Below are positions 39,756 through 54,485 of a stretch of DNA of 64,000 bases, in pieces (position 1 is the first letter of the stretch; each line of letters opens with the position of its first letter). The DNA is taken from positions 391,524-455,523 of the forward strand of contig NZ_JAERPO010000002.1 in NCBI RefSeq assembly GCF_016734905.1, given 5' to 3'. The position numbers and the translations under genes were made by a program. Under the pieces are notes generated by a model. The model was not told where the DNA came from. It saw nothing but the letters and a program-made list of their open reading frames with translations, and searched no databases. This DNA comes from Sphingopyxis jiangsuensis (GTDB taxonomy: Bacteria > Pseudomonadota > Alphaproteobacteria > Sphingomonadales > Sphingomonadaceae).

Positions 39756-41333
39756 ATGGGCCAAGCCATGACCGATGCCCCTGCCCCGCCGCTCAAGCTG
39801 TTCAACAGCCTCACGCGCCGTCTCGAAATCTTCGAGCCCGTCCACCCCGGCGTTCCTGGCGATCCGGCGAACCCGCCGGAGGCGCGCGTCTACAGCTGCG
39901 GCCCGACGGTCTATAATTACCCGCATATCGGCAATATGCGCGCCTACGTCTTTGCCGACACGCTCGGGCGCACGCTGTCGTTCAAGGGTTACAAGCTCAC
40001 GCATGTCATCAACATCACCGACGTCGGCCATTTGACCGACGACGCCGATGCGGGCGAGGACAAGCTCGAGAAAGCGGCCGCCGAAAAGGCGCAATCGATC
40101 TGGGATATCGCGCGGCACTATACCGAGGCTTATTGGGCCGATGTGAAGGCGCTCAATATCCGCCAGCCGGCGCACTGGTCGATCGCGACCGATTATGTCC
40201 CGCAGATGATCGAGTTCGCGAAGGCGATCGCCGACAAGCATTGCTACGAGCTCGACAGCGGCCTCTATTTCGACACGTCGACCGTCGCCGACTACGGCCG
40301 CCTCGCGCGCCATGCCACCGATGAAGGCGAAAGCCGCATCGATCCCGTCGACGGCAAGCGCCACCCCGCCGACTTCGCGATCTGGCGCAAGACCCCGCCG
40401 GGCGAGAAGCGCCAAATGGAATGGGATTCGCCCTGGGGCAAGGGCGCACCGGGCTGGCACCTCGAATGCTCGGTGATGTCGGAGGCCCTGCTCGGCTTCC
40501 CCTTCGACATCCACACCGGCGGCATCGACCATCGCGAGATCCATCATCCGAACGAAATCGCGCAGAACCAGGCGCACAGCTGCTCTGCCGACAGCGGCGC
40601 GCGCATCTGGATGCACAATAATTTCCTCGTCGAACGCTCGGGCAAGATGTCGAAATCGAGCGGCGAGTTCCTGCGCGTGCAACTGCTCATCGACAAGGGC
40701 TACCACCCCCTCGCCTATCGCCTGATGTGCCTCCAGGCACACTATCGCAGCGAGCTGGAGTTTTCTTGGGAGGGGCTCGGTGCGGCGCTGACGCGGTTGA
40801 AGCGGCTGGTGATGGCTGTCGAAAAACTTGATCCTCCCCGGAACGGGGAGGTGGCATCGCACAGCGATGACGGAGGGGGGCGGCGTCCTTCCGCCGATGC
40901 AGTGCAAGACCGCCAACCCCCTCCACCGGCTTCGCCGGTCCCCCTCCCCGTTCCGGGGTGGGTCGCAGACCTACTGGCAAAGTTTGACGCCGCCATGTCG
41001 GACGATCTCAACACGCCCGTCGCGCTGACCCTGCTCGAGGAAGCCGCAGCGATGAAAAAGGTCGACGCGAGCCAGAAGCGCGCGGCGTTCGCCGCGATGG
41101 ACGCGGTGCTCGGCCTCGATCTGCTGACCATCGAGCGCGCCGACCTGCGTGTCCGGCCGAAGTCCGCGACAATCGCCCAAGAAGAAATCGAAACCACGCT
41201 CGCCAAACGCAAGGAAGCCCGCGCCGCCAAGGATTTCGCCACCTCCGACAAACTCCGCGACGAACTGATCGCCGCGGGCGTCGAGGTGATGGACGGCGAC
41301 CCGCTCGGCTGGGACTGGCGGCTGGAAGCGTAA
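39756..41333 (+). CDS. cysS: Cysteine-tRNA ligase with in-frame repeat insertion
   Basis: A 525-residue class I cysteinyl-tRNA synthetase, which charges tRNA-Cys in the cytoplasm. The HIGH motif is PHIGN (residues 56-60), preceded by zinc ligand Cys48; further zinc-site residues are in WHLECSVM and GGIDHREIHHPNE, and KMSKS is residues 297-301. It is about 60 residues longer than E. coli CysS. Residues ~359-403 (Pro/Arg/Ser-rich, LDPPRNGEV to PVPGW) are encoded by a palindromic repeat and lie between the catalytic core and the anticodon-binding helical domain, a tolerant linker. Start ambiguity: Met1 or Met5. No other gene is within its transcript upstream. Confidence 0.95.
   Translation: MGQAMTDAPAPPLKLFNSLTRRLEIFEPVHPGVPGDPANPPEARVYSCGPTVYNYPHIGNMRAYVFADTLGRTLSFKGYKLTHVINITDVGHLTDDADAGEDKLEKAAAEKAQSIWDIARHYTEAYWADVKALNIRQPAHWSIATDYVPQMIEFAKAIADKHCYELDSGLYFDTSTVADYGRLARHATDEGESRIDPVDGKRHPADFAIWRKTPPGEKRQMEWDSPWGKGAPGWHLECSVMSEALLGFPFDIHTGGIDHREIHHPNEIAQNQAHSCSADSGARIWMHNNFLVERSGKMSKSSGEFLRVQLLIDKGYHPLAYRLMCLQAHYRSELEFSWEGLGAALTRLKRLVMAVEKLDPPRNGEVASHSDDGGGRRPSADAVQDRQPPPPASPVPLPVPGWVADLLAKFDAAMSDDLNTPVALTLLEEAAAMKKVDASQKRAAFAAMDAVLGLDLLTIERADLRVRPKSATIAQEEIETTLAKRKEARAAKDFATSDKLRDELIAAGVEVMDGDPLGWDWRLEA
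40831..40963 (+). repeat. Palindromic repeat element inside cysS coding sequence
   Basis: Starts ATCCTCCCCGGAACGGGGAGG and ends with CCCCTCCCCGTTCCGGGG, the same ends and internal hairpins (ATCGC-aca-GCGAT; CCGGC-ttc-GCCGG) as the intergenic copy at 54358-54485. It is read in frame by CysS, adding about 45 low-complexity residues. The right terminal GGGGAGGAT has decayed to GGGGTGGGT. This is comparable in principle to Rickettsia palindromic elements, which also insert in genes, but the family differs. Confidence 0.85.
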
Positions 41334-41336
41334 GCG

Positions 41337-41393
41337 GCCCCTCCGTCAGCGCTTCGCGCTGCCACCTCCCCATTGCAAGTCAATGGGGAGGAT
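41337..41393 (+). repeat. 57-bp repeat unit, right-end type, copy 1
   Basis: A 57-bp unit starting GCCCCTCCGTC, with hairpin AGCGC-ttc-GCGCT and hairpin CCTCCCCATTG-caagt-CAATGGGGAGG, lies 4 bp past the cysS stop. The 41846-41902 copy has the same length and the same loops. The stem differences between the copies are compensatory (AGCGC/GCGCT versus ATCGC/GCGAT; ATTG/CAAT versus ATCG/CGAT), which argues that the fold is selected. Confidence 0.85.
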
Positions 41394-41405
41394 CGTTAAG
41401 AGCCA

Positions 41406-41902
41406 ATCCTCCCCATCAACTTGCGATGGGGAGGGGGACCGCCCGCGCAGCGGGTGGTGGAGGGGCAACGACGGTGCGTCCAGACAAACCCGCTTGGACC
41501 ATCCGCCGCGCCAAACGGCTCCGCCGCCAACTCACCCTGCCCGAAACCCTGCTCTGGCAAATCCTGCGCACCGCGCCCGGCGGCCACAGGTTCCGCAAGC
41601 AACATCCCGCCGGCCCCTATATCCTCGATTTTTTCTGCGCCCGCGCCAATCTGGCGATCGAGATCGACGGCATCGCGCACGATATGGGAGGCAACCCCGC
41701 ACACGACGAACGGCGCGACGCCTGGTTGCGCGCCAATCGGATCGACACGATCCGCATTTCCGCCCGCGCGGTGCTGGACAGCGCCGAGACCGTCGCCCAA
41801 TCTGTTGTCGACATGGTCGAAGACCGCCTGAACAGATTCGGAAAAGCCCCTCCGTCATCGCTTCGCGATGCCACCTCCCCATCGCAAGTCGATGGGGAGG
41901 AT
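41406..41902 (+). mobile_element. DUF559 nuclease cassette with terminal inverted repeats
   Basis: A 497-bp unit bounded by inverted repeats: the left end begins ATCCTCCCCATCAACTTGCG (41406-41434 overall) and the right end (41874-41902) is its reverse complement with one difference over about 29 bp. Inside each end is a further hairpin (CCCGC-gca-GCGGG on the left; ATCGC-ttc-GCGAT on the right). The only gene is a DUF559 nuclease. The short copies at 40831 and 54358 carry the same two ends without the gene and in opposite relative order, so they look like deleted derivatives. No target-site duplication is obvious. Mobility is inferred, not shown. Confidence 0.6.
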
Positions 41903-41920
41903 CAGAAGGATCGTTTATGA
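41474..41920 (+). CDS. DUF559 domain endonuclease-like protein
   Basis: About 148 residues from a GTG start at 41474, preceded by GGAGGGG that belongs to the left repeat. The fold is Vsr/restriction-endonuclease-like: RQLTLPETLLWQILR with Glu24, GPYILDFFC with Asp52, and LAIEIDGIAHD with Glu63 and Asp65, followed by the ERRDAWLRANRIDTIRI family block. These residues fit a PD-(D/E)xK-type nuclease site. The last ~25 residues (APPSSLRDATSPSQ onward) are encoded by the right repeat and are not part of the domain. The stop overlaps the next start as ATGA. Its function is not established; a role in spreading the flanking repeats is a hypothesis. Confidence 0.82.
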   Translation: MRPDKPAWTIRRAKRLRRQLTLPETLLWQILRTAPGGHRFRKQHPAGPYILDFFCARANLAIEIDGIAHDMGGNPAHDERRDAWLRANRIDTIRISARAVLDSAETVAQSVVDMVEDRLNRFGKAPPSSLRDATSPSQVDGEDQKDRL

Positions 41921-42861
41921 CCAAAACCGTCACCGTCCTGTCGGGCCTTATCCGCCCGCTCGTCGAAAACCGCCTGCCCCACTGGGTCGAGCCGCGTTTC
42001 TTCCTGTCGAAGGACGAAGCCATGGCGCTCGCTCCCGAGGCGGAAATCGGCTGGTTCGACATGTACGACAAGAAGGACATGGCCGCGGTCATCACCGCTG
42101 CGACGAACCTCAAATGGCTGAACTCGATCTACGCCGGGGTCGACGGCATGCCGCTCGACCTGCTCGCCAGGCGCGGGACGGTCGTCACCAACGGCGCCGG
42201 CATCAACGCGATCACCATCGCCGAATATGTCGTGATGGGGATGCTCACCATCGCCAAGGGCTATCGTGAGGTGGTGCGCGCGCAGGACCGGCGCGAATGG
42301 CTCACCGACTCGCCGGGCAAGATCGAGCTGTTCGGGTCGAAGGCGCTGCTGCTCGGCTATGGCGCGATCGGCAAGCTGGTCGAGGAACGGCTGCGGGCCT
42401 TTGCTGTCGACGTGACGATCGTCCGCCGCTCGCCGGGGAAAGACACGCTGACCCCCGACCAGTGGCCGGAACGGCTCGGCGAGTTCGACTGGGTGATCCT
42501 CGCGGTTCCCGCGACCCCCGAAACCGACGGAATGATCGGCGCGGCGGAACTCGCGGCGATGAAGCCGACCGCGACGCTCGTCAACATCGCGCGCGGCAGC
42601 GTCGTCGATCAGGATGCGCTCGTGGCCGCGCTCGACCAGAAACGCCTCGGCGCCGCCTTCCTCGACGTCACGACACCCGAGCCGCTGCCCGAGGACGATC
42701 CGCTGTGGAGCCTCGATAACGCGCATATCACCATGCACCTGTCGGGCCGCGCGCAGGACAAGATGTTCGTGCGCTCGGCGGAGCGCTTCCTCGAAAATCT
42801 CGACCGCTGGAAAACCGGCGAGGACGTTACGCCGCAAGTGAATCTGACATTGGGATATTGA
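41917..42861 (+). CDS. D-2-hydroxyacid dehydrogenase
   Basis: A 314-residue NAD(P)-dependent enzyme of the D-isomer-specific 2-hydroxyacid dehydrogenase family, reducing 2-keto acids or the reverse. The nucleotide loop is LLLGYGAIGKLVEERL. Catalytic Arg is in NIARGSVVDQDAL, the acidic residue in DVTTPEPLPEDDPLW and the His in ITMHLSGR. The ATG overlaps the DUF559 stop, and AAGGA lies 6 bp upstream. The original promoter was probably separated from the gene by the repeat cassette. The exact substrate is not predictable. Confidence 0.9.
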   Translation: MTKTVTVLSGLIRPLVENRLPHWVEPRFFLSKDEAMALAPEAEIGWFDMYDKKDMAAVITAATNLKWLNSIYAGVDGMPLDLLARRGTVVTNGAGINAITIAEYVVMGMLTIAKGYREVVRAQDRREWLTDSPGKIELFGSKALLLGYGAIGKLVEERLRAFAVDVTIVRRSPGKDTLTPDQWPERLGEFDWVILAVPATPETDGMIGAAELAAMKPTATLVNIARGSVVDQDALVAALDQKRLGAAFLDVTTPEPLPEDDPLWSLDNAHITMHLSGRAQDKMFVRSAERFLENLDRWKTGEDVTPQVNLTLGY

Positions 42862-42928
42862 GGCCTCTGCGGTAACCAATCTCGCGGTGCCAGCGAAATC
42901 GGGGCACGAAGATTTTCCCGGGATTAAT

Positions 42929-54357: not shown

Positions 54358-54485
54358 ATCCTCCCCACTTGTGGGGAGGTGGCAGCGCGAAGCGCTGACG
54401 GAGGGGGGGTGCGGCCTTTAGCGCCGCTCGAAACCGCGAGCCCCCTCCACCGCTTCGCGGTCCCCCTCCCCGTTCCGGGGAGGAT
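54358..54485 (+). repeat. Palindromic repeat element between yebC and ruvC
   Basis: A 128-bp copy with ends ATCCTCCCCACTTGTGGGG and CCCCTCCCCGTTCCGGGGAG and internal hairpins AGCGC-gaa-GCGCT and CCGC-ttc-GCGG. It is homologous to the cysS copy and to the ends of the DUF559 cassette. Its right terminus GGGGAGGAT lies at the correct distance to act as the ruvC Shine-Dalgarno sequence. Confidence 0.88.

Follow-up and report, generated by a model that had tools for sequence, protein, structure and literature searches.

An intact DUF559 nuclease gene between inverted palindromic ends in Sphingopyxis: a candidate enzyme for BoxC/PIT-type repeats

The window analysed here is a stretch of 64,000 nucleotides of Sphingopyxis jiangsuensis DNA. 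Three of its genes follow one another on the + strand: cysS (39756..41333), a gene encoding a DUF559 protein (PF04480; a Vsr/EDxHD-type PD-(D/E)XK nuclease; 41474..41920), and a D-2-hydroxyacid dehydrogenase gene (41917..42861), whose start overlaps the DUF559 stop (ATGA). The DUF559 protein has 148 amino acids, with GTG 41474 as its likely start, since five orthologues at the same site have ATG (3/5) or GTG (2/5) at this position. Two palindromic ends, also read on the + strand, enclose the gene. The L-type end (41406..41466, fold z -4.4) consists of an outer palindrome, CCTCCCC..GGGGAGG, then an inner hairpin, GGGGACCGC..GGTGGAGGGG. The R-type end (41846..41903, fold z -6.6) starts with its inner hairpin, CCGTCATCGC..GCGATGCCA, which in the inward reading is GGTGGCA..TGACGGAGGGG, and closes with the outer palindrome CCTCCCCATCG..CGATGGGGAGG. 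Each end thus consists of two hairpins, outer palindrome and inner hairpin, which DNA folding predicts. The coding sequence traverses the right end, so that the R-type end overlaps its 3' part.

An earlier note, made from the sequence alone, had described 41406-41434 and 41874-41902 as inverted arms with one mismatch in 29 bp. This was confirmed, and a repeat search extended the arms to 32 nt at 94%. Arms were scored as the best local match between the 350 bp on the left of a gene and the reverse complement of the 350 bp on its right, and the control was made of 1240 windows set at equal distances along 20 stretches of 20 kb, which were picked irrespective of content. The DUF559 locus scored 26 and the best control window 17 (n=1240): these arms are not a product of chance. 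The direct copy of the right end that the note had also pointed out is a solo R-type end lying just past the cysS stop (41337..41394, + strand), 58 nt long and 93% identical to 41846-41903. The window further contains a gene-less pair of an R-type and an L-type end (40831..40964, + strand, right border set by eye), in frame within the cysS coding sequence, and a second miniature element of the same family as the cassette ends, again a pair with no gene (54358..54485, + strand). An Rfam search of 40500-42900 at E 1 returned two matches only, both far under the gathering scores; one was to a miRNA model and covers the cysS-internal pair. PADLOC gave two matches, both weak.

The hairpin pair within cysS is fused in frame, and the protein is about 34 residues longer than the 491 usual among relatives. 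The same pair is found in the cysS gene of locus L286 (genome G002) and is absent from the other 20 cysS sequences compared. In G002, a further stretch of about 250 bp, with no visible palindromes, is inserted in frame into cysS; it lies between codons 185 and 194, at a place that is otherwise conserved. In many genomes of the genus (L039-L049), the strong match to cysS ends near codon 357 and the remainder is highly divergent.

In a profile search, the protein encoded between the ends scored 77.5 bits against PF04480 (E 8.7e-22), for which the curated cut-off is 20.6. It is the sole gene of the cassette and its acidic site is intact, as had been claimed: D52, E63, D65 and H69 are invariant in 43 aligned DUF559 sequences, as are E24, W28, Q43, G66 and R94, and all are kept here. 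The motif goes by the name EDxHD, which fits the D..ExD..H pattern of the residues present here. One orthologue, L043, has G in place of the otherwise invariant E24. Among the six orthologues found at the cysS site, 15 pairwise dN/dS values over 110 codons ranged from 0.09 to 0.29; the gene is under purifying selection there.

An AlphaFold2 model of the protein had a mean pLDDT of 84.9. Its best Foldseek match was the DUF559 structure 3hrl (E 5e-6), the only one to pass E 0.001, followed by 3r3p, the catalytic domain of I-Bth0305I (probability 1.00, TM 0.80 by target for chain B, E 1.1e-3 to 2.5e-3). The same two structures ranked first in a profile search, 3r3p with E 3.1e-5, and 3hrl alone came under E 0.1 in a single-sequence search. 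Among solved proteins whose role is known, the closest relative is I-Bth0305I, an EDxHD/Vsr-type homing endonuclease. Catalytic fold and profile match are common to both; however, no intron or intein is present here, the DUF559 gene being carried between palindromic ends, and the protein is little more than a nuclease domain, unlike I-Bth0305I. E. coli Vsr (1vsr) belongs to the same superfamily and is a weak fold match (rank 21, E 0.32), but it is not the closest structure, and the DUF559 gene has cysS and the dehydrogenase gene as neighbours, with no methyltransferase.

Do other DUF559 genes carry such ends? The 3.13-Mb genome to which the window belongs has six DUF559 genes, one of them frameshifted, and hairpins in inverted array flank all six, each locus with its own variant. 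Five of these loci had arm scores of 21 to 36 and the sixth had 13, a value reached by 45/1240 control windows. DUF559 is present in 51 of 60 genomes of the genus, with up to 11 copies per genome. From the 169 DUF559 matches (E 1e-10 or better) in these 60 genomes we examined 95 loci, namely the six of the own genome, the 29 best matches, and 60 taken from about every second row of the remaining matches listed. Arms scoring at least 18 were found at 86/95 loci, against 0/1240 control windows; the figures were 89/95 against 6/1240 at a score of at least 15, and 92/95 against 45/1240 at a score of at least 13.

A wider, named set gave similar arms (score of at least 18) in 68/78 loci, including records from Betaproteobacteria, relatives of Xanthomonadales, Chloroflexi, Marinimicrobia and Binatia. 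It was made of the best 80 of 512 candidates, one genome per species, chosen via two peptide patterns; it is rich in sphingomonads, some probably of the same genus. Two loci were excluded, L182 for its 9-bp flank and L255 for a run of N. In a few loci, N bases inside an arm were scored as matches. In a phylum-wide sample, DUF559 was present in 31/150 genomes and the arms passed the same score in 18 of the 29 loci examined. On plasmids (7 of 40 matching records examined), 2/2 Deinococcus and 1/3 cyanobacterial loci passed. Strong direct repeats stood in place of inverted ones at a second cyanobacterial plasmid locus and at a Neisseria gonorrhoeae locus; at the latter (L295), the flanking direct copies are about 120 bp each and contain the same hairpin motif. 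Over the genus and wider sets, 16 loci scored below 13, and a scan without control found a C-rich/G-rich hairpin of at least 6 bp on at least one side in 15 of them. The earlier note had proposed a possible new mobile cassette. This proposal stands in so far as the element has ends of its own and carries the gene as cargo; the element is not one local cassette, it belongs to a family spread over the genus and across phyla.

The ends of different loci resemble one another to some degree. When ends were paired at random across loci, 34% of 1500 draws scored at least 13, and the own partner of an end ranked first in 27/95 loci and within about the top five in 56/95. Over 86 loci, protein identity and end similarity were correlated (Mantel r 0.51, the highest of 1000 permutations being 0.14). 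The ends co-vary with the nuclease.

The ends also occur without the gene. A pattern for one end family was searched and, among the 150 matches listed, which come from ten genomes, 37 inward neighbouring pairs were found. Thirty of these were short, 45-72 bp from start to start, and held no DUF559; the other seven were 368-384 bp apart, and DUF559 was enclosed in all seven. Four outward pairs, 74-76 bp apart, adjoined DUF559 cassettes, and 76 of the listed matches were single. BLAST of the R-type end against its own genome gave 61 matches at E ≤10, of which 33 under E 2e-4, the cassette's own ends included. Among 22 own-genome copies that were aligned, 20 pair one R-type and one L-type end over a short spacer, as judged by eye, and these miniature elements have sharp borders, ATCCTCCC..GGGAGGAT, also by eye. 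The number of ends follows that of the gene: the median of pattern matches was 14 in the 51 genomes with DUF559 versus 1 in the nine without (p 6e-4), and end number correlated with DUF559 number over the 60 genomes of the genus (rho 0.66), kinship being ignored in both comparisons. A reversed control pattern had 0 matches in every genome of the genus. Two of the nine DUF559-free genomes hold 11 and 21 end matches, so end copies persist or arise without DUF559.

How mobile is the gene-bearing form? We retrieved 30 cysS loci from the genus, 26 of which had a readable junction with the following gene, and L286 was added, making 27 junctions read. The cassette was present at 6/26 junctions, own genome included. 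At one (L057), both cassette ends are kept but only codons 1-25 and 118-159 remain, that is, an internally deleted cassette. Seven junctions carry a pair from another end family, one of them decayed; two are empty (59 bp); seven contain an unrelated stretch of 410-422 nt resembling a small gene; and three have other repeats. In L286, exactly one palindrome is left between the same flanks. The search for empty sites that the note had called for was therefore fruitful: filled, deleted, solo-hairpin and empty states all exist at the cysS site. The excision it had imagined, by recombination with the direct copy at 41337, found no support, as the expected product is not among the 27 junctions, and the recurrent deletion is the one between the two outer palindromes. 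A decayed copy of the solo R-type end is seen at the same place in L042.

Comparing DUF559 loci between genomes, pairs with at least 80% protein identity occupied the same site in 153/158 cases and different sites in five. At 60-70% identity, neither flank was in common in 18/52 pairs. Three of the five different-site pairs were upheld by their neighbours: L119 has no flanking gene in common with L127, L130 or L142, L130 and L142 having both flanking sides in common. The apparent relocation of L137 relative to L144 and L156 was not upheld, L137 and L144 having a 57-residue match in the upstream flank. The high proportion of shared sites indicates that the gene-bearing form rarely moves and is mostly inherited in place, as PMC3116915 describes for RAYTs, the short gene-less forms being the dispersed ones.

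The structure of the ends recalls a repeat family of E. coli. Most ends obey a common grammar in sequence, a pyrimidine arm, a purine arm and then a mirror image of the purine arm, which is that of the BoxC/PIT repeats. The mirror purine tract was present in 134/143 ends from the genus and 118/146 others, where shuffled arms would give 36.2 and 43.1; 55 ends without a purine arm of at least 6 were skipped in this count. Purine tracts in the same sense were also frequent (94/143 and 80/146), because many arms are nearly symmetrical. According to the accessible portions of Holder 2015 (PMC4666352), BoxC/PIT/TMECO repeats were already recognised in E. coli in the 1990s and are present across bacteria, their means of spread is not known, and no mobility gene was found in their context. 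As described there, they share with the present ends the palindrome with its mirror purine tract and an intergenic, multi-copy and strain-variable distribution, and all five of the inverted pairs given there are made of a type A and a type B unit, as here. The difference is that the text ties no mobility gene to them, whereas here ends of this kind enclose DUF559 in several phyla, and ycjD has BoxC no. 9 next to it.

The gene ycjD is the DUF559 gene of E. coli, and was listed as a PD-(D/E)XK member in 2005 (excerpts of PMC1189080). The stop of ycjD is followed, after 167 bp, by BoxC no. 9 (1,351,204-1,351,239 in the table of Holder 2015), whose palindrome was found there in NC_000913.3. BoxC-type repeats are on one side of ycjD only, without an inverted arm pair (score 9). 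E. coli strains lacking ycjD did not offer a clean empty site, as the two examined carry efflux genes there, which correspond to the eef operon of PMC12817139, from what could be seen of that paper.

BoxC sites vary among E. coli strains. Between hrpB and mrcB, a full pair is present in K-12 and a single palindrome in strain I3, whereas TUM11352 has neither. Between alx and sstT, K-12 has a pair and AZ 186 one palindrome; in strain NH-21 (L309), the allele lacks the BoxC pair and is longer by 217 bp, a form seen in 11 of 40 matches listed. Between fepB and entC, K-12 has a pair plus outer arms (186 bp), all absent from ZH49 and WP4-S17-ESBL-03, and the K-12 form was matched over at least 80% in 2752/5426 genomes. 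No consistent target-site duplication was seen at these three sites, a 3-bp TAA being possible, by eye, at fepB-entC. The solo palindrome is a recurrent state, occurring in L286 as well as at two of the E. coli sites, and may result from the nuclease or from simple deletion between palindromes.

DUF559 usually lies between hairpins of which copies without a gene are dispersed as well, and this makes it a candidate for the enzyme behind their spread. We consider it rather probable that the feature in the window is the gene-bearing member of a REPIN-like palindromic family run by a nuclease of the homing-endonuclease type. That the nuclease moves its own ends, we infer from the association, the co-variation, the copy number and the kind of enzyme. 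In the mechanism we propose, the nuclease would recognise its own ends, probably as hairpins or putative triplexes in single-stranded DNA at replication, and would nick or cut there; repair would then copy or drop the element. This would yield solo hairpins, cassettes with an internal deletion and, in trans, further short copies. Such cut-and-repair chemistry would resemble that of I-Bth0305I and not the strand transfer of a transposase, and the gene, like that of a RAYT, would stay put for long periods and seldom move. In its broader form, the proposal is that the BoxC/PIT superfamily has its dedicated enzyme in DUF559, with ycjD of E. coli as one case, across five or more bacterial phyla. 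These repeats would then be a REP-like class of mobile element in which a homing-endonuclease-type PD-(D/E)XK nuclease acts on hairpin or triplex ends without transposase chemistry. For this broader form, we see the balance as about equal. Several observations count against our reading: the nearly always fixed site of the cassette, the lack of a consistent target-site duplication, the one-sided repeats at ycjD, the end matches in genomes without DUF559, the resemblance among ends of different loci, the frequent same-sense purine tracts, and the G in place of E24 in L043. The E. coli alleles could also be explained as plain deletions between palindromes.

The most serious rival is that DUF559 is a homing-type endonuclease lodged inside pre-existing palindrome pairs. 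BoxC/PIT repeats would then be moved otherwise, the nuclease cutting empty pairs and repair copying the gene in. We hold this to be a real, though clearly less probable, possibility. That I-Bth0305I is the closest solved relative of known role speaks for it, as do cassettes that keep to their sites and, like homing genes, have alleles with and without them, as at the cysS site, and end pairs that outnumber the genes and occur in some DUF559-free genomes. Against it, end copy number tracks DUF559, and the only other mobiliser examined, RAYT, is absent from 49/60 genomes at E 1e-5. In another reading, the palindromes are ordinary REPs moved in trans by a RAYT or another transposase and DUF559 is incidental. 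The doublet architecture is that of REPINs (as depicted in excerpts of Bertels and Rainey 2011, PMC3116915), PF01797 (RAYT-type) has a single, weak match in the own genome (E 3.8e-8), and genomes with PF01797 have somewhat more ends, although the link is not significant over the 60 genomes (median 22 versus 10, p 0.13). PF01797 was, however, found in just 11/60 genomes of the genus at E 1e-5, with 2 of 12 matches strong, and 40/51 genomes with DUF559 lack it. RAYT, the one transposase family covered, is thus not favoured as driver of the ends in this genus, and we judge incidental association very improbable.

It also seems improbable to us that DUF559 is a Vsr-like DNA repair gene around which terminators or other regulatory repeats have gathered as hairpins. 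The elements at the cysS site do lie directly behind a stop codon, and a DUF559 protein of Caulobacter, VsrA, damages DNA in cells without a cytosine methyltransferase, which is read as mismatch repair in the portions seen of PMC12907096. Terminators, however, are not expected to come as inverted pairs co-varying with the nuclease subfamily, nor as gene-less pairs of L-type and R-type ends, nor to show such site polymorphism as is found at cysS and in E. coli.

The likeness to REP-associated transposase systems, suggested at the outset with a nuclease of another fold, proved real. Going by the excerpts of PMC3116915, REPINs share with our elements the inverted palindrome doublet as short mobile form, here seen in the 20/22 aligned copies and the 30 short inward type-A pairs, and, next to these palindromes, an enzyme gene that is divergent and for the most part immobile. 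The differences lie in the enzyme, which is here a PD-(D/E)XK nuclease (PF04480) and not a Y1 (HUH) tyrosine transposase, and, by eye, in the palindromes, with mirror purines here versus GTAG tags in REPs. If the preferred reading of DUF559 as mover of its own ends is true, REP-like systems have at least two separate origins, with enzymes that are not related. DUF559 is a common family with a solved structure and no agreed role, and BoxC/PIT are repeats without a known spreader; the link between them gives both a testable role, in K-12 as well, and suggests another view of those DUF559 proteins that are currently labelled as Vsr enzymes of mismatch repair. The literature on DUF559, ycjD and COG2852 that we covered, PMC12907096, PMC1189080 and PMC12817139 included and most subscription journals outside it, revealed no link to palindromic repeats, and an earlier mention elsewhere is possible.

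Alphaproteobacteria also have CGTC-tagged REPs, palindromes said to be without a dedicated transposase in the accessible part of Di Nocera 2013 (PMC3733652). No best arm pair of the genus and wider loci was a CGTC REP, as judged by eye, and DUF559 therefore does not appear to fill this gap. Some miniature elements (L014-L016, L026-L034) adjoin CGTC-type REPs or have common extended outer flanks (ACCGGTTGCGGAC), a compound arrangement that looks as if they had spread in larger units. In most of the 22 aligned miniature copies (L011-L036), the outer palindrome pairs CCTCCCTGT with ATGGGGAGG, so that, on one strand, the hairpin contains a tandem T.G wobble; T:G mismatches are the target of Vsr enzymes.
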